The notes beneath the pieces are model-generated. The model was not told the DNA's origin and ran no database searches. It worked only from the letters and a program-made list of their open reading frames with translations. The translations under genes were made by a program, and so were the position numbers. A stretch of 61,767 nt of DNA from a virus: IMG/VR virus record IMGVR_UViG_3300046524_000143, positions 1-61,767 of that record; one strand, written 5' to 3'. The first letter of the stretch is position 1. Each line of letters opens with the position of its first letter. Below are positions 1,181 to 61,767 of this stretch, one piece after another.

Positions 1181-1200
1181 TACTGTACGAACATACAGTA
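1181..1200 (+). promoter_or_regulatory. LexA box upstream of imuA
   Basis: The site matches the CTGT-N8-ACAG SOS consensus with symmetric flanks (TACTGTAC ... ATACAGTA). It overlaps a plausible promoter: TTGTCA at 1170-1175 and TACAGT at 1194-1199. The imuA start codon is at 1216, leaving a leader of only about 10 nt. Confidence 0.85.
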
Positions 1201-1215
1201 TTTTGCAAACACAAC

Positions 1216-1959
1216 ATGAACCATACGATCGCCGCTGCCGAGCTAGAATCGTTGCATCCGTCGCTCTGGCGCGCTTCCCAGTTGGGGCGCAGCCGGACGC
1301 AATGCATCGATACAGGGCACCCAGCGCTGACGCATCAGCTTCCCGGCGGCGGCTGGCCTGTCGGCACGCTTGTCGACTTGCTAGTGCAGCAGCCGGGAAT
1401 AGGGGAGATGCGGCTGGTCGCGCCGGCATTGGCAAAGGTGGCGGCTCGCAAAGTCGTGTTACTGCAGCCGCCGCATGCACCACAGGCCCTGTCGCTCGCT
1501 GCACTGGGCGTACCGCCAGAGTCCGTGCTGTGGCTGCGCTCGGAACGTACCGCGGATGCCCTTTGGGCCGCTGAGCAGGTACTAAAGAGTGGGAGTTGCG
1601 GCGCCTTGCTGTTCTGGCCCGGGCAAACCTCGAGCAGCAGCGCACGCCAGCAACCGGTGCGAGCCGAAAGTCTGAGACGCTTGCACCTGGCAGCGCAACA
1701 GGGAGAAACGTTGTTCTTCAACTTCCGCCCGCTGACAGCCGAGCAGGACGCCTCGCCAGCGCCTCTCCGCTTGAGCGTGCGGCCGGCGCCCGGCGGCATC
1801 AATGTCGGGGTGGTAAAACGGACGGGTCCGCAGCGGGATGAGCCGATCTTCCTGCCGATGTCGGTCTCGACGTTTATTCCGCAGCCGCATCGCGAGCGGG
1901 TCCCAGAGCGGATTGCGAAAGTTGCCCGCGTCGAGCTACCGACCGATTTCCATTACTAA
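1216..1959 (+). CDS. imuA: ImuA, translesion-synthesis accessory protein
   Basis: This 247-residue protein has the N-terminal pattern typical of ImuA, including 'WRASQLGR' and the glycine-rich LPGGGWPVGTLVDLL. The latter corresponds to the degenerate RecA-like nucleotide loop of this family. In the host, ImuA works with ImuB and the DnaE2 polymerase in error-prone bypass of DNA damage. Here neither imuB nor dnaE2 follows: the next gene is the oppositely oriented integrase. The length is normal for the family and the frame is intact. A near-consensus LexA box precedes it, so expression is expected after DNA damage. It could partner host ImuB-DnaE2 or interfere with host RecA or ImuA. Its position beside attP marks it as conversion cargo. 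Confidence 0.88.
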   Translation: MNHTIAAAELESLHPSLWRASQLGRSRTQCIDTGHPALTHQLPGGGWPVGTLVDLLVQQPGIGEMRLVAPALAKVAARKVVLLQPPHAPQALSLAALGVPPESVLWLRSERTADALWAAEQVLKSGSCGALLFWPGQTSSSSARQQPVRAESLRRLHLAAQQGETLFFNFRPLTAEQDASPAPLRLSVRPAPGGINVGVVKRTGPQRDEPIFLPMSVSTFIPQPHRERVPERIAKVARVELPTDFHY

Positions 1960-14396: not shown

Positions 14397-14534
14397 TCAA
14401 CGTGCGCACTCAGGCGCCTTACCGTTGATGAGATGCCAGCCGAGTGCCTGGCGTACCTGTTCCGGCGTCGGTGGCGGTTTGTGGTCCACCTGGCGCTGCT
14501 GCATCCACTGACGGACTTCCTCTTTCGTAGGCAC
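14397..14534 (-). CDS. hypothetical small protein, 45 aa
   Basis: A GTG start at 14534 is preceded by AGGGAGC. The product (MPTKEEVRQWMQQRQVDHK, then PPPTPEQVRQALGWHLI) has two short amphipathic helices joined by a proline stretch, and its stop is 10 bp before the next start. The clean ribosome site and spacing support it. The function is unknown. Confidence 0.55.
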   Translation of the reverse strand: MPTKEEVRQWMQQRQVDHKPPPTPEQVRQALGWHLINGKAPECAR

Positions 14535-14544
14535 GATTAGCTCC

Positions 14545-14676
14545 CTAGTTGGCGTTCAACTTGCTGGAAACTGCGTAAGTAACCTTCTGAATCTCTTCGA
14601 CGAGCACCAGGCCGTAGACAGCTGCCAGGACAAAGCCAAGGAGGAGCAGGGCTGCGTATGCGTAGGTCGTTTTCAT
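14545..14676 (-). CDS. small membrane protein, first gene of the left operon, 43 aa
   Basis: ATG 14676 opens a 43-residue product with one hydrophobic helix (AYAALLLLGFVLAAVYGLVL) and a short polar tail. It is the promoter-proximal gene behind the pL-like promoter at 14721-14749, the position of lambda N. It does not look like an N-type RNA-binding antiterminator. Confidence 0.6.
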   Translation of the reverse strand: MKTTYAYAALLLLGFVLAAVYGLVLVEEIQKVTYAVSSKLNAN

Positions 14677-14713
14677 CGCTGTGCTAGTCCTTCTTGTGTT
14701 GGTGCGTCGTCGA

Positions 14714-14762
14714 TGAATTCACTATACGCCAGAAAAACTAGTAAGACAAGAAAAACTAGTAA
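14714..14762 (-). promoter_or_regulatory. pL-like early-left promoter with two tandem operators
   Basis: On the minus strand TTGTCT (14749-14744) and TATAGT (14726-14721) are separated by exactly 17 bp. The direct repeat AGAAAAACTAGTAA occurs at 14731-14744 and 14749-14762, an 18-bp period. These are likely repressor operators, because a related CTAG-containing site lies in the right promoter at 16688-16700. Confidence 0.6.
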
Positions 14763-14816
14763 ATTTTTAGGAGTGTTGTTTTAAACAGATCAAAGAGTCT
14801 GTAGTTTGATGCAGAC

Positions 14817-14842
14817 GGAAAAAATCCCGCTCGCGGCGGGAT
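14817..14842 (-). terminator. rho-independent terminator of the zinc-ribbon gene
   Basis: In leftward orientation the strand reads ATCCCGCCGCGAGCGGGAT followed by TTTTTT: a strong GC stem with a T run. It closes the transcript of the 14913-15242 gene and insulates it from the pL operon. Confidence 0.75.
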
Positions 14843-14912
14843 GGTTCGGAGGGCGCGTGAGCCTCAGCCGCAGTATGCGGCCGGGGGACAGCGAAGGGAG
14901 GGCGGCGAGCGG

Positions 14913-15242
14913 CTAGGGAGCGTGCCCGAAACGCGTCTTGTAATCGGCTTCCATGCGCTCGCATGCGCCGGCTAGGAATCTACTGTCACTGGAAGAGTTG
15001 GACTTGCGCTCTTGTTCCTTCCAGCATGAGGCAATGACATCGCGGGCCTCCGCTTTGGCCTTGCCCTCTGGCGATGATCCGAGGATCGCGCCGGTAACCA
15101 GGATAGCGACGAGAGCGCCAACCACACCGACTGGCAACCATAGCCACCAGTTCATCCGTCGCGCTCTGGCGCCGCACTGAGGGCAGGCCGCAGCCTCGGT
15201 GCTCACGTTGGCACCGCACTCACTGCAAGAGATCAATGCCAT
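14913..15242 (-). CDS. LexA-controlled zinc-ribbon membrane protein, 109 aa
   Basis: The N-terminus is a zinc ribbon (SCSECGANVSTEAAACPQCG). It is followed by a basic stretch, one membrane helix (WLWLPVGVVGALVAILVTGA) and a periplasm-side helical tail with two cysteines. GGAGG precedes ATG 15242. A near-consensus LexA box lies 91 bp upstream and a terminator lies just downstream, so it is a one-gene SOS unit inside the immunity region, where lambda carries rex. Roles such as exclusion, membrane signalling or relaying SOS to the phage switch are possible. None is proven by sequence. Confidence 0.75.
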   Translation of the reverse strand: MALISCSECGANVSTEAAACPQCGARARRMNWWLWLPVGVVGALVAILVTGAILGSSPEGKAKAEARDVIASCWKEQERKSNSSSDSRFLAGACERMEADYKTRFGHAP

Positions 15243-15332
15243 AGGGCCTCCAATTGACCCGGAACTGGACCGTTGCGTTTAGTTCTTTCGGCAACATAAT
15301 CTTGTGGAACAGTCGCCGGGAAGCATGTACAC

Positions 15333-15352
15333 TACTGTATAAATAAACAGTA
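15333..15352 (-). promoter_or_regulatory. LexA box upstream of the zinc-ribbon gene
   Basis: The site has perfect CTGT and ACAG halves (15335-15338 and 15347-15350) with an all-A/T spacer and TA flanks on both sides, very close to the gammaproteobacterial consensus. The nearest correctly oriented gene is 14913-15242 on the minus strand. The rest of 15243-15463 shows no gene. Confidence 0.85.
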
Positions 15353-15463
15353 CTTTCAATAAACAATCATGCTGTAGTTACAGATAGAAACAATCGACAC
15401 ACAACTGTTATATCTTTTGGACTAGAATCAAATGGAGCCCAACCGTGACCGCAAGCAATAAAT

Positions 15464-15694
15464 CTAGCTTCTCAGGTGCCCTAATACCTGGCGCAACAGC
15501 ATTTTCAGTTCTTCATTTTGCTGCTTGATGTCGTCTAGAGGGGATGCGCTCAAGCGCGAAAGCATCTCTGCATTAAGTGAATGTCCATTCCTCTCCGCGG
15601 CCGCCACCAGCTCTTCGTGTAGGGCCGTCGGTATGCGAAGCGCGGTCTTAATGTGATTCTTCTGTTTCTGTTGTGGAATTGGAGGTGTTCTCAT
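15464..15694 (-). CDS. Arc-like ribbon-helix-helix repressor
   Basis: The 76-residue protein contains ALRIPTALHEELVAAAERNG followed by HSLNAEMLSRL, the classic strand-helix-helix of Arc/Mnt-type regulators. The C-terminus is a short coiled coil (QQNEELKMLLRQVL) that may mediate tetramers, as in Mnt. Arc-type proteins control antirepressor or immunity genes in P22-like phages. It lies in the immunity region. A perfect palindrome 41 bp upstream of its start is a likely operator. Confidence 0.85.
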   Translation of the reverse strand: MRTPPIPQQKQKNHIKTALRIPTALHEELVAAAERNGHSLNAEMLSRLSASPLDDIKQQNEELKMLLRQVLGHLRS

Positions 15695-15734
15695 ACCCCC
15701 AATTTTTCCATGTTGCTAGAAAAATACAGTAATG

Positions 15735-15753
15735 TGCCTTCATTATGAAGGCA
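15735..15753. promoter_or_regulatory. perfect palindrome, likely operator of the Arc-like repressor
   Basis: TGCCTTCAT and ATGAAGGCA are separated by one base, a 9-bp perfect dyad. It lies in the intergenic region upstream of the Arc-like gene (start 15694). Ribbon-helix-helix repressors usually bind such dyads and regulate themselves. The surrounding 15695-15929 is AT-rich with no other feature seen. Confidence 0.5.
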
Positions 15754-15929
15754 GTTGTTTGGTGAGTATTGGTGAGAAATATTTCATTACCGCGTGCAAT
15801 AATTAATCTTACGTAGGAATAATCGTACATAGGAATCAGCATGGATTAAGTCGATTCATATGCCCGCGCTTTAGAAGCACCGCACCACCTGGCGTCGCTC
15901 CCGCTTCCAACTACTACTAGAGTGCCTCG

Positions 15930-16196
15930 ATGACGAACCATAATGACGAGTCGACCGAACATCGAGTTCTCGCAGCACTCCGCGAGACCAACCCTCAAAA
16001 ACACGCCGAGATCGTGGCTGCGGTCGAAGCAATGGCGGCCGCATTCCCGAAACCCGCCAAGGTATCGCTTGCTCGCCCTGCGTCACTTCGCCTTGTGGTC
16101 AGCGATGGCCGCACTGTCCGCACTGGGAAGCGCTCTAGCCATCACCAGGAGCGAATTCTTCCCACTCTCGGTCATCCTGCGGTACTCACTAAGTAA
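15930..16196 (+). CDS. possible small protein convergent with the repressor gene, 88 aa
   Basis: The N-terminal 45 residues (NHNDESTEHRVLAALRETNP, HAEIVAAVEAMAAAFPK) look like genuine helical protein. The last 38 residues overlap the 3' end of the CI gene on the other strand and look like shadow sequence. The ribosome site is weak. It could be a truncated or antisense gene in the immunity region. Treat as tentative. Confidence 0.35.
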   Translation: MTNHNDESTEHRVLAALRETNPQKHAEIVAAVEAMAAAFPKPAKVSLARPASLRLVVSDGRTVRTGKRSSHHQERILPTLGHPAVLTK

Positions 16197-16631
16197 AGCC
16201 GCTTCGTCCTCCGATACCCACTGCAGATTCAACGACTGACTCTTGTGGTCAGCGAAGGCTGCGTTGTCGATGTTCGGAAGGGCCTTCGCCATCACCAAGA
16301 GCGAGTTCTTCCCACTTTCGTTCTTCCTGCGGTATTCACTCAGTAGGGCTGACTCACCCCCCGACACCCATTGCAGGTTCGGAGACTGACGTTCGTCACG
16401 TCCCTCTGCTTCAGGGACGCTATCGTCGCCAGCTCCCGTCATAAGCCACTCCGGCGTTGTGCCAAGAACTTCTGCCACCTTCTTGATCCGGTTGCGGTTC
16501 GGCGCCGTCCCATCCTCATTCTCCCACTGCTGAACGGTCTGCCAAACCACGCCCACAGCTTTCGCTAGGGCCTCTTGGCTTTGGAAGCCACGCTCAAGGC
16601 GCTTCTGCTTGATTCGTTGATGGATGCTCAT
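16083..16631 (-). CDS. CI-type repressor with tandemly duplicated tail and no cleavage domain
   Basis: The start is ATG 16631 (MSIHQRIKQKRLERG). Residues 1-65 are a HTH_3/XRE domain (EALAKAVGVVWQTVQQWENE). There is no S24/LexA-type peptidase domain. Instead residues about 82-131 and 132-182 are a tandem repeat of 50 residues, both containing NLQWVS and ALLSEYRR with SGKNSLLVMA, about 75% identical. The repeated segment looks like the short dimerisation tail of small repressors. It is expected to hold lysogeny by binding the CTAG-type operators. Without a peptidase domain it should not respond to RecA by self-cleavage. Confidence 0.85.
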   Translation of the reverse strand: MSIHQRIKQKRLERGFQSQEALAKAVGVVWQTVQQWENEDGTAPNRNRIKKVAEVLGTTPEWLMTGAGDDSVPEAEGRDERQSPNLQWVSGGESALLSEYRRKNESGKNSLLVMAKALPNIDNAAFADHKSQSLNLQWVSEDEAALLSEYRRMTESGKNSLLVMARALPSADSAAIADHKAK

Positions 16632-16677
16632 TCCGCAACTATGCCAAGAACGACTAGTAGCGGATACACAGAATTTT

Positions 16678-16713
16678 CTTGTGTCTGCTAGATTTTCTAG
16701 TACAATGGGTTTC
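16678..16713 (+). promoter_or_regulatory. pR-like promoter with operator
   Basis: TTGTGT (16679-16684) and TACAAT (16701-16706) are 16 bp apart. Their spacer contains the perfect dyad CTAGA-TTT-TCTAG (16688-16700). A second ACTAGTAG lies at 16653-16660, toward the repressor start. Transcription would begin near 16713, at the cro-like ATG (16714), so that mRNA may be leaderless. Confidence 0.5.
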
Positions 16714-16974
16714 ATGGATACCTCATCTCACCAAGCGCTATCTCGCGCGATCGCTCAATACCCGACCTTGAAGGCATTTTCGGATGCCCTCGACGTCCGC
16801 TATCAGGTAGTTCAGCAATGGCTAGTCAACGGTGTTCCGGCTGAATATTGCCCGCTCATCGAGAAGCTGACCGGCGAGCGTTGCGAAGACCTGAACAGCA
16901 AAGTCGATTGGGCGTTCATACGTTCCAACAAGCCTGGAGGCGTCAAGCGCCGCAGGGCAGCGGCAAAGAACTAG
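16714..16974 (+). CDS. Cro/YdaS-like DNA-binding protein, 86 aa
   Basis: The product (MDTSSHQALSRAIAQYPTLK, then AFSDALDVRYQVVQQWLVNG) has a YdaS-type helix-turn-helix followed by ECPLIEKLTGERCEDL-like sequence usual for that family (here YCPLIEKLTGERCEDL). It is transcribed divergently from the repressor, the position of cro. The in-frame ATG at 16705 lies inside the probable -10 box, so 16714 is the better start. It is expected to repress the repressor promoter and favour lytic growth. Confidence 0.8.
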   Translation: MDTSSHQALSRAIAQYPTLKAFSDALDVRYQVVQQWLVNGVPAEYCPLIEKLTGERCEDLNSKVDWAFIRSNKPGGVKRRRAAAKN

Positions 16975-17071
16975 TAGCACCAGCAGTCCACATCCTGCAA
17001 CACGATTCATAGGATGCGCAGCAAAGCAATTCAGTCACCAACATCCTTCAACACGGTTTAGAGGAGAAGTG

Positions 17072-17329
17072 ATGAAAGACCCCAGAAACCTTGCAGTAAA
17101 GACGTTCATGAATAGCCATGAGTACCGGGATTTCAACGAAGCCTGCGTCTTGGTGGATGTTCCGCACAGCCAAATCATGCGGAAACTCGCGAACGATTGG
17201 GCTAGGCAGATCAAGTCTAGCGAGATCGCCGGGCAGAAGAAAGACACCGGCACGGCCCCGAATTGGTCCTTGCCAAACCCGCACTCAAGGGTGAACTACG
17301 GCATCGCGCCGGTTCGGCTTCGGGTTTGA
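17072..17329 (+). CDS. hypothetical early regulator (CII position), 85 aa
   Basis: GAGGAGAA precedes ATG 17072. The product starts MKDPRNLAVKTFMNSHEY and contains DFNEACVLVDVPHSQIMRKL, which may be a short DNA-binding helix pair. It occupies the place of cII in lambda, but no clear family match is evident. Upstream, CATCCTGCAACACGATT (16991-17007) is repeated with two changes at 17042-17058. Confidence 0.55.
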   Translation: MKDPRNLAVKTFMNSHEYRDFNEACVLVDVPHSQIMRKLANDWARQIKSSEIAGQKKDTGTAPNWSLPNPHSRVNYGIAPVRLRV

Positions 17330-55971: not shown

Positions 55972-57006
55972 TTAAGCTTGTTTGGCTAATTTCCGATTCA
56001 CGAGGTCATCTCTAAGCGCCCGAGTTAGCGGGACCTCGATGTATCTGTTGGCTAAACCCGCCAGCACGGTTGCGATCAAAAACAGGTAGATCCACGCGAG
56101 CCACCATACCGGCACTTGGGCGATCCGCATGGCGACGATGGCGAAGGGCTGAGTCAGATAGAAGCTGTACGAGATATCACCCATCCATACCAAGGAGGCT
56201 GGCCAGCGTACCTTCGCCGTGAGGTCAAGACCAACGCAGCCTGCCACCACCATGAAAGACGAAAGACCCCATGTCGCCACTCGCAGCATTGCGAGCTTGC
56301 TCGACGTAAGAGAGGTTTCGTGGATCGAAAGCCATGGCCTTGCCGAGCCAGCTTCCCACATGAGCCACAGCCCTCCGAGCAGCAAACATAGGGAGACTCG
56401 AAAGCTCAGCTTATGCCGGAATCGATACAGCAACAGGCCGAGCACAAATTCTAGTGCAAGGGGACTTCCGAGGAAGTGAGGCGCAAACCAGTTGCCGTTA
56501 TAGAAGAACGTCAGGATTACGGCTGACACAATAAAGAGGATAAATGCCTTGCCAGCCCTTTGCTTGGCATACGACAGTGCCACAGCAAAGATTAGGTAAA
56601 ACCACATCTCCAACGCCACTGACCAGCCGAACCAATGAGCAGGGTTGGTGTAGGTATTCCCATAGTCGAATATCGGAATGAAACACAAGGTATTCCAGAT
56701 CTTCGACATCGACGCGTCGTCCATGGCGAGGAAAAGCAGCGCCGTGATCAAGTACATCGGCAGGATGCGCGTGAGGCGATTGCGAATAAAATCCGCAGGC
56801 CCGCCACGAGAACGCTCCGTCACCATGGCGATCACGAAGCCTGAAATGATGAAGAAGACGTCGACGCCCATAGCGCCGATTCTCCAAGGGAAGTCGGCGA
56901 ATGGACCAGCAGGTGGCTTGGTCGCCATAGGTGCATGCGCCAACAGGACCATCATGGCAGCGATCCCGCGAAGCACCTGAATGCTGTTTAGTTTCTGCTT
57001 TTCCAT
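55972..57006 (-). CDS. acyltransferase-3 family membrane protein, internal complete copy, 344 aa
   Basis: The start is ATG 57006 (MEKQKLNSIQVLRGIAAMMV). The product has about ten hydrophobic helices and the family Arg/His motif in RGIAAMMVLLAHA. It is predicted to acylate surface polysaccharide and may change the host receptor (seroconversion). Bases 56376-56958 are identical to 1-583. The C-terminal part differs from the junction copy at about nine residues, and the junction copy has a 10-residue longer tail. Confidence 0.9.
   Translation of the reverse strand: MEKQKLNSIQVLRGIAAMMVLLAHAPMATKPPAGPFADFPWRIGAMGVDVFFIISGFVIAMVTERSRGGPADFIRNRLTRILPMYLITALLFLAMDDASMSKIWNTLCFIPIFDYGNTYTNPAHWFGWSVALEMWFYLIFAVALSYAKQRAGKAFILFIVSAVILTFFYNGNWFAPHFLGSPLALEFVLGLLLYRFRHKLSFRVSLCLLLGGLWLMWEAGSARPWLSIHETSLTSSKLAMLRVATWGLSSFMVVAGCVGLDLTAKVRWPASLVWMGDISYSFYLTQPFAIVAMRIAQVPVWWLAWIYLFLIATVLAGLANRYIEVPLTRALRDDLVNRKLAKQA
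56376..56958. repeat. 583-bp identical segment shared with positions 1-583
   Basis: The segment lies within the two acyltransferase genes. The copies diverge at 584/56959 (c versus a) and before 56376 (c versus a at 61640). Direct orientation means recombination between them would remove the 5.26-kb lysis region. Confidence 0.9.
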
Positions 57007-57200
57007 TGGAGAACCTATATCAGGCATTTCGTAAGAGTGCGGAACGGTTCGCACTGATGCTGATCTATCTCAACCAAAGCAAGAAAGACAGAAGATAGAC
57101 CTGTTTCAAACGCACCGCAATGCGATTCGACTGCGCGTTGTAACTATCCATCACCCGCCGCGAGCGGGCGCTGTAGAGGCATCTATATCCACCACCTGCG

Positions 57201-61206: not shown

Positions 61207-61767
61207 TTACTGGCGCGGTACGCCCAAACCTAGCTTCTGTGCTTGCTTAACCAGTTTCCGATTGTGGAGATCATCCCTGAGCGCCCGAGTCAGAGGGACC
61301 TCGACGTATCTGTTGGCTAATCCTGCCAGCACGGTTGCGATCAAAAACAGGTAGATCCACGCCGCCCACCATACCGGCACTTGAGCTATCCGCATGGCGA
61401 CAATGGCGAAGGGCTGAGTGAGGTAGAAGCTGTACGAGATGTCGCCCATCCATACTAGCGATGTCGGCCAGCGTATCTTCGCTGTAAGGTCCAGCCCAAC
61501 GCAGCCCGCTACCACCATGAAGGACGAAAGGCCCCAAGTAGCGACTCGCAGCATTGCAAGCTTGCTCGAGGTGAGGGATGTTTCGTGAATCGAAAGCCAT
61601 GGCCTCGCTGAGCCGGCTTCCCACATGAGCCACAGCCCTACGAGCAGCAAACATAGGGAGACTCGAAAGCTCAGCTTATGCCGGAATCGATACAGCAACA
61701 GGCCGAGCACAAATTCTAGTGCAAGGGGACTTCCGAGGAAGTGAGGCGCAAACCAGTTGCCGTTATA
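61207..61767 (-). CDS. acyltransferase-3 family membrane protein, C-terminal part (junction copy)
   Basis: The frame is open at the right window edge and joins 1-631 when the contig is circularised. Visible segments include SFRVSLCLLLVGLWLMWEAG, WMGDISYSFYLTQPFAIVAM and a final KLVKQAQKLGLGVPRQ. That tail is longer than the one in the internal copy. The gene is leftward, as is the internal copy. Confidence 0.88.
   Translation of the reverse strand, partial: YNGNWFAPHFLGSPLALEFVLGLLLYRFRHKLSFRVSLCLLLVGLWLMWEAGSARPWLSIHETSLTSSKLAMLRVATWGLSSFMVVAGCVGLDLTAKIRWPTSLVWMGDISYSFYLTQPFAIVAMRIAQVPVWWAAWIYLFLIATVLAGLANRYVEVPLTRALRDDLHNRKLVKQAQKLGLGVPRQ
61641..61767. repeat. 127-bp direct terminal repeat, right copy
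   Basis: Identical to 1-127. It starts immediately after the last base that differs between the two acyltransferase genes, which indicates an assembly-graph overlap of a closed circle. Confidence 0.9.

Follow-up and report, generated by a model that had tools for sequence, protein, structure and literature searches.

The closest described systems are temperate phages in which a gene under LexA control accompanies a repressor that does not cleave itself: in the Gifsy phages (GfoA, GfhA and GftA; Lemire et al. 2011, PMC3121763) a LexA-controlled small gene occurs with a small DicA-like repressor devoid of a cleavage domain, and phage 186 Tum and N15 AntC, as far as they are cited in PMC3121763, follow the same arrangement. 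A second point of reference is the interval separating cI from pL, already described as a site of morons (PMC7067206), in which a variable accessory gene such as lambda rexAB or BTP1 bstA lies downstream of the repressor and before pL, on the cI strand. Here we have analysed the virus record IMGVR_UViG_3300046524_000143, whose 61,767 bp are referred to as the window, and in particular gene 14913-15242, which lies behind a LexA box in the immunity region. We propose, with a probability of roughly 55%, that this gene occupies a LexA-controlled cargo slot of the lysogeny module, in a moron position of the rex/bstA type, and encodes an envelope protein rather than an inactivator of the repressor. 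We therefore class the unit as a variant of LexA-controlled phage cargo and not as an antirepressor. The features of the region are:

16083..16631, minus strand: CI-type repressor without S24 domain, 182 amino acids (aa) (HTH_3, 1.6e-9; structure model)
15930..16196, plus strand: small open reading frame (ORF) p88, conserved in relatives; it diverges from arc, converges with cI and overlaps the cI end
15464..15694, minus strand: arc, an Arc-type ribbon-helix-helix regulator, 76 aa (PF03869 above cut-off; ratio of nonsynonymous to synonymous substitution rates, dN/dS, about 0.1 among relatives)
15333..15352, no strand: immunity-region LexA box, TACTGT-N8-ACAGTA with 0 mismatches, its position shared by 7/7 closest relatives
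14913..15242, minus strand: cargo gene, 109 aa (Pfam PF13248, hydropathy, structure model, domain swap in relatives)
14824..14842, minus strand: intrinsic terminator closing the cargo unit, a 7-bp stem and T-run (14842-14824), with a similar stem in relative L044
14721..14760, minus strand: pL-like promoter TTGTCT-17-TATAGT; two to three repeats resembling repressor operators overlap it and are conserved there in relatives

Each comparison has its limits. The window gene differs from the Gifsy case in lying inside the immunity region, in coding for a membrane protein and in being swapped for lipoproteins in relatives. No sequence relation to 186 Tum or N15 AntC was found, and the window cargo, unlike these, is membrane-anchored. 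According to PMC7067206, bstA is transcribed in lysogeny from the repressor promoter; in the window, the LexA box separates the cargo from cI-arc. Phage 434 Hex (PMC3564112) is also encoded after the repressor in the cI operon and bears on the prophage SOS response; however, Hex blocks the RecA-stimulated cleavage of an S24 repressor, and there is no such repressor in the window.

When the window was searched with TACTGTNNNNNNNNACAGTA, allowing at most one mismatch, exactly two sites were found in the 61,767 bp, at 1181-1200 and 15333-15352, each with 0 mismatches; the extended box search of 100 dinucleotide shuffles returned no site, so that 0 are expected. The looser CTGT-N8-ACAG with one mismatch occurs 12 times in the window against 17.8 expected, which is chance level, and therefore the extended TACTGT-N8-ACAGTA match alone is informative. 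CTGT-N8-ACAG is the sequence used by LexA in beta- and gammaproteobacteria. The cargo gene, on the minus strand, starts 90 bp downstream of the immunity box. A box at a promoter, as in members of the LexA (SOS) regulon, is thus present with 0 mismatches, 0 expected and conservation in 7/7 close relatives, and we infer from it that host LexA controls the cargo unit. The cargo gene ends before terminator 14842-14824, and therefore forms a single-gene unit; terminator-like patterns in the region occur at around chance frequency, and a like stem also follows in L044.

The cargo protein has a zinc ribbon at residues 4-26 (PF13248 above cut-off) with two CxxC motifs (C6, C9, C21 and C24), followed by a hydrophobic stretch, a predicted transmembrane helix, at about residues 36-54. 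In a low-confidence model (predicted local distance difference test, pLDDT, 69), its C-terminus is a helical hairpin in which C73 and C94 are about equally far from the turn, and this hairpin is probably pinned by a C73-C94 disulfide. No antirepressor family was matched in Pfam and NCBIfam profile searches. With the sequence of the cargo protein itself as query, no close relative passed among viral contigs, and no near-identical phage was found in the annotated collection; relatives were reached instead through CI, Arc, imuA and the DNA pattern. The C-terminal domain is more broadly distributed. In chromosomal and prophage homologues from Achromobacter and related genomes, which have no LexA box, SHOCT replaces the zinc ribbon; the homologue in L003 is convergent with a helix-turn-helix (HTH)-S24 repressor and also lacks the box, and other homologues are chromosomal. 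The cargo domain is therefore tied neither to S24-less repressors nor to LexA. This C-terminal domain, with the pattern CW-x-E-x-ERKS...C-E-x-ME-x-DY, is widely found together with a SHOCT-like domain at the N-terminus and a single membrane helix (L003, L005, L006, L007).

The repressor gave no S24 match in profile searches in which HTH_3 and related HTH models did match, and a search for Peptidase_S24 over the whole window record found none. Its AlphaFold model, of low confidence (pLDDT 61), comprises an HTH and helical repeats without a beta peptidase fold, and its best NCBIfam match is DicA, below the cut-off. As in the antirepressor systems, the S24 self-cleavage domain is thus absent from the repressor. 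Four structural claims of the earlier note on this DNA, made from the letters alone, are upheld by these results: a LexA box before the gene (a perfect match, with none in 100 shuffles), a single-gene unit (the terminator follows the gene), a repressor without S24 (profile and whole-record searches negative) and a zinc-ribbon membrane protein (PF13248 and the hydrophobic stretch). A further box before imuA, which that note also described, was likewise confirmed, with 0 mismatches and an imuA match of 211.8 bits.

The same note had proposed that the SOS wiring moved from repressor cleavage to LexA boxes. To avoid selecting on the immunity box, this was assessed on phage records found through imuA; S24 domains and LexA boxes were searched across the whole records, and the repressor regions were read. 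A LexA box occurs within about 3.5 kb of the repressor in 0/12 records with an HTH-S24 repressor, and downstream of cI in 8/9 records with an identifiable S24-less repressor (Fisher's exact p = 4.4e-5, records being treated as independent and kinship ignored). The eight records with a box (G269, G271, G282, G283, G297, G304, G312 and G315) represent five repressor types, and the exception, G301, has arc and a zinc-ribbon membrane gene in the same slot but no box. The Fisher test excluded S24-less imuA records without an identifiable repressor (G302, G307, G313 and short fragments), as well as phages derived from the DNA pattern, since the latter had been picked for having the box. Comparison of these records thus supports the conclusion that the immunity-region box accompanies S24-less repressors and not HTH-S24 repressors. 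The proposal of moved wiring is in this respect partly supported; the imuA box is no substitute for repressor cleavage, since imuA is also found in the 12 phages with S24 repressors. Both G297 and G315 carry S24 as separate genes behind the LexA box: in G297 (L138) an HTH-S24 protein is in the cargo slot, and in G315 (L139) a lone S24 domain follows arc. These separate proteins are possible trans-acting peptidases.

The relatives show what is retained and what is exchanged. Among the seven related phages gathered by CI and Arc searches, the order cI, p88, arc, LexA box and left operon is kept in 7/7; the 8-base core of the box does not vary, and its position behind arc is the same in all seven, within weakly conserved intergenic DNA. 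The gene behind the box, in contrast, changes. Zinc ribbon and helix are preserved in L056 and L048, with a C-terminal domain different from that of the window (the zinc ribbon and transmembrane part of L056 is 45% identical to the window's), and the C-terminal domain of L048 and L056 recurs without a zinc ribbon in L045, L046, L047 and L049, where a lipoprotein-like or secretion signal precedes it. In L044, whose repressor is 85% identical, the box is kept and the cargo gene is reduced to a remnant. The viral contigs were also scanned with the box and its downstream bases; many of the matches were unrelated contigs, dropped after their downstream ORFs had been read, and the remainder were further phages that differ in repressor and cargo. 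Unrelated lipoproteins lie behind the box in L060, L081, L103, L058 and, among the imuA records, L139; the cargo of L130 is a secreted protein, and no cargo is evident in L070 or L102. The cargos of the window, L045-L049, L056, L060, L081 and L103 each contain a pair of cysteines beyond the anchor. As at other moron sites, the position is thus between repressor and pL and its content is variable. A further prophage group (L058, L063, L097, L101, L107 and L116) has a 131-aa S24-less repressor followed at about 290 bp by a LexA box; most of this group has a 242-aa lipoprotein behind the box, and in L058, L063 and L107 a 100-aa ORF pointing the other way begins some 27 bp from the box.

These exchanges bear directly on the candidate put forward in the earlier note, namely that the zinc-ribbon protein is a LexA-controlled antirepressor, working in principle like 186 Tum or those of Gifsy. 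The general mechanism is real (PMC3121763), and the window does combine an S24-less repressor with a LexA box before the gene. However, an antirepressor would be expected to be free in the cytoplasm and to be kept together with the non-cleavable repressor; here the product has a transmembrane helix and its slot is filled by lipoproteins and secreted proteins in other phages, while L044 has lost the gene and retains both box and repressor, and L070 and L102 have none evident. A domain that is presented by way of a membrane helix or of a lipid or signal peptide would act outside the cytoplasm, and it is mainly for this reason that a direct antirepressor role is rejected. Moreover, a C-terminal homologue beside an S24-type repressor and the zinc-ribbon membrane gene of G301 both occur without a LexA box, and no antirepressor family is matched. 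We thus regard this explanation as very improbable; the role of induction trigger is not supported by this evidence, and the cargo is probably not what induces the virus.

We rather favour the following scheme for the cargo slot. In the direction of transcription, the proposed order is S24-less cI, arc, LexA box, one cargo gene, terminator and pL. In lysogeny, host LexA on 15333-15352 would keep the cargo down; upon DNA damage, LexA would be removed and the cargo made. The window cargo would be an inner-membrane protein with a cytoplasmic zinc ribbon, one membrane helix and a helical hairpin outside the membrane, a topology suggested by its sequence. It would act at the envelope during prophage induction, in superinfection exclusion or another envelope change; such an envelope role is the most likely one, judging from topology and position. 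Several observations weigh against this scheme. The models of both cargo and CI are of low confidence (pLDDT 69 and 61), and the N-termini SSGC (L047 and L049) and SAGC (L046) deviate from textbook lipoboxes. A promoter sequence in the cargo direction, TTGAAA-18/19-TAGTGT, is present in some relatives only, and a promoter sequence in the opposite direction, TACACT-17-TATTTN, is of about equal quality; the promoter direction at the immunity box is thus inferred from gene order, as the sequence alone gives no decision. Finally, the association of the box with S24-less repressors is tighter than a plain moron would predict.

The last of these points is what an alternative would account for, in which the LexA-controlled promoter faces arc, p88 and cI. 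The SOS transcript would then be antisense to arc and cI and sense for p88, so that less repressor and a small protein would be made, with the cargo as a passenger. Such a promoter would account for the box going with S24-less repressors irrespective of cargo. In addition, the box is always downstream of cI, at about 200-730 bp, with five repressor types; its cI-side flank, ACAGTA-TTT in most phages, matches what is seen on the gene side of imuA boxes; p88 shows conservation and purifying selection; and the box has survived the loss of the cargo in L044, L070 and L102. Against this, p88 has its own conserved promoter overlapping the arc promoter, the S24-type gene of L138 begins right behind the box in the cargo direction, the -35/-10 scores are poor in both directions, and p88 has no homology to the CI C-terminus. 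We consider this alternative unlikely, if still worth weighing. A more general form, in which the SOS input of phages with S24-less repressors comes from a LexA-controlled promoter downstream of cI, independently of the gene behind it, for instance by transcription back through arc, p88 and cI, with the cargo as an exchangeable passenger or as a protector of the induced cell, seems to us rather doubtful. Because the box and not the cargo tracks the repressor type, a possible second, cargo-independent role of the box in induction is retained beside the cargo slot: the box may belong to the SOS input of S24-less repressors through a cargo-independent step. Candidates for how SOS might inactivate the repressor are the conserved arc/p88 pair and a promoter directed towards cI.

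The pair itself is notable in its layout. Arc, missed like p88 in the earlier note, sits between the repressor and the immunity box and is under purifying selection among relatives, as is p88 (dN/dS 0.08-0.45 over the 50 codons outside cI); their divergent promoters overlap and are conserved in relatives. A transcription factor gene divergent from a small ORF next to the repressor recalls the modules of a transcription factor and a small ORF described by Silpe et al. (2023, PMC10432266), and in layout arc and p88 correspond to them; however, the sequence families are different and the published modules are SOS-independent (PMC10432266). Counterparts of p88 adjoin unrelated S24-less repressors (L060, L103 and L142), and p88 is a candidate repressor-interacting protein. 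A resemblance of p88 to the C-terminal repeat of CI, seen by eye, was rejected as homology (hhalign probability 0.3%), and the idea that p88 is driven from the LexA box is weakened by its own conserved promoter.

The second perfect box of the window belongs to another unit:

1181..1200, no strand: second LexA box, upstream of imuA, with 0 mismatches to TACTGT-N8-ACAGTA and 0 expected; an equivalent box is present in imuA-carrying phages
1216..1959, plus strand: imuA, a phage-borne SOS gene (NCBIfam NF033429 equivalog, 211.8 bits, cut-off 150)

The box lies 15 bp upstream of imuA, relatives of which are found at 33 viral loci (L011-L043). In about 30 viral contigs, imuA and its LexA box are located between phage lysis/exonuclease genes and integrases, with no imuB alongside in those read. 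The view of imuA as a stray host gene at a contig edge was rejected, phage genes flanking it in many contigs. One could suppose that the SOS inducer is the gene of this second unit (imuA here, other small ORFs in relatives) and that the immunity box serves moron control only. Gifsy phages likewise have a LexA-controlled gene outside the immunity region (PMC3121763), and a second perfect box is found 12-14 kb from the immunity box in 6/6 close relatives with enough sequence (G273, a 31.5-kb fragment, has the immunity box only). Other ORFs replace imuA behind it, one of 96 aa in L131-L133, about 10 bp after the box, and one of 87 aa in L134. However, imuA and its box occur equally in the 12 HTH-S24 phages; being present in phages of both repressor kinds, they are therefore no substitute for repressor cleavage. 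ImuA is moreover a conserved mutagenesis factor, and the slot content varies as in the first unit. An inducer in this unit is thus quite improbable, and the unit also looks like an SOS-controlled cargo position.

Further features of the immunity region concern the repressor and its putative operators:

16092..16390, no strand: 150-bp tandem duplication within cI, doubling the C-terminal repeat; one copy in relatives
16644..16701, no strand: three operator-like sites between cI and cro, at 16644, 16668 and 16687, with equivalents in relatives
16654..16974, plus strand: Cro-position YdaS-type regulator (PF15943, 1.9e-11)
15291..15305, no strand: possible operator for the repressor, lying in the LexA-controlled unit's leader, with 2 mismatches to ACWAG-N5-CTWGT, weak alone

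The duplication is in frame, its copies being 77% identical, and is present in the window only, being absent from the seven relatives. The operator-like repeat, ACWAG-N5-CTWGT, has three copies between cI and cro and two to three at the pL-like promoter. A site equivalent to 15291-15305 is present in L044, L045, L046, L047 and L049 and not in L048 or L056 (6/8 phages including the window); as proof of co-regulation by CI this site was rejected, since sites with 2 mismatches arise about once per kb. An Rfam search of 14500-17100 found no RNA. At the level of the whole record, 127 bp are common to both ends (1-127 and 61641-61767) and occur again at 56376-56502; this repeat is within an acyltransferase gene that is present twice (at 55972-57054, and from 61207 across the ends to about 640), and the record looks circular, which may be genuine or may reflect an assembly joint.

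Phages with non-cleavable repressors are common, and the route by which the SOS signal reaches them is known for a few only. A LexA box fixed beside five types of S24-less repressor, absent beside S24 repressors and followed by interchangeable cargo is a recognisable genomic signature, and it permits a direct test of whether a promoter has taken over the SOS input from the repressor protein. The SOS-controlled phage genes in this slot appear to encode mostly envelope proteins, a class unexpected among antirepressors.
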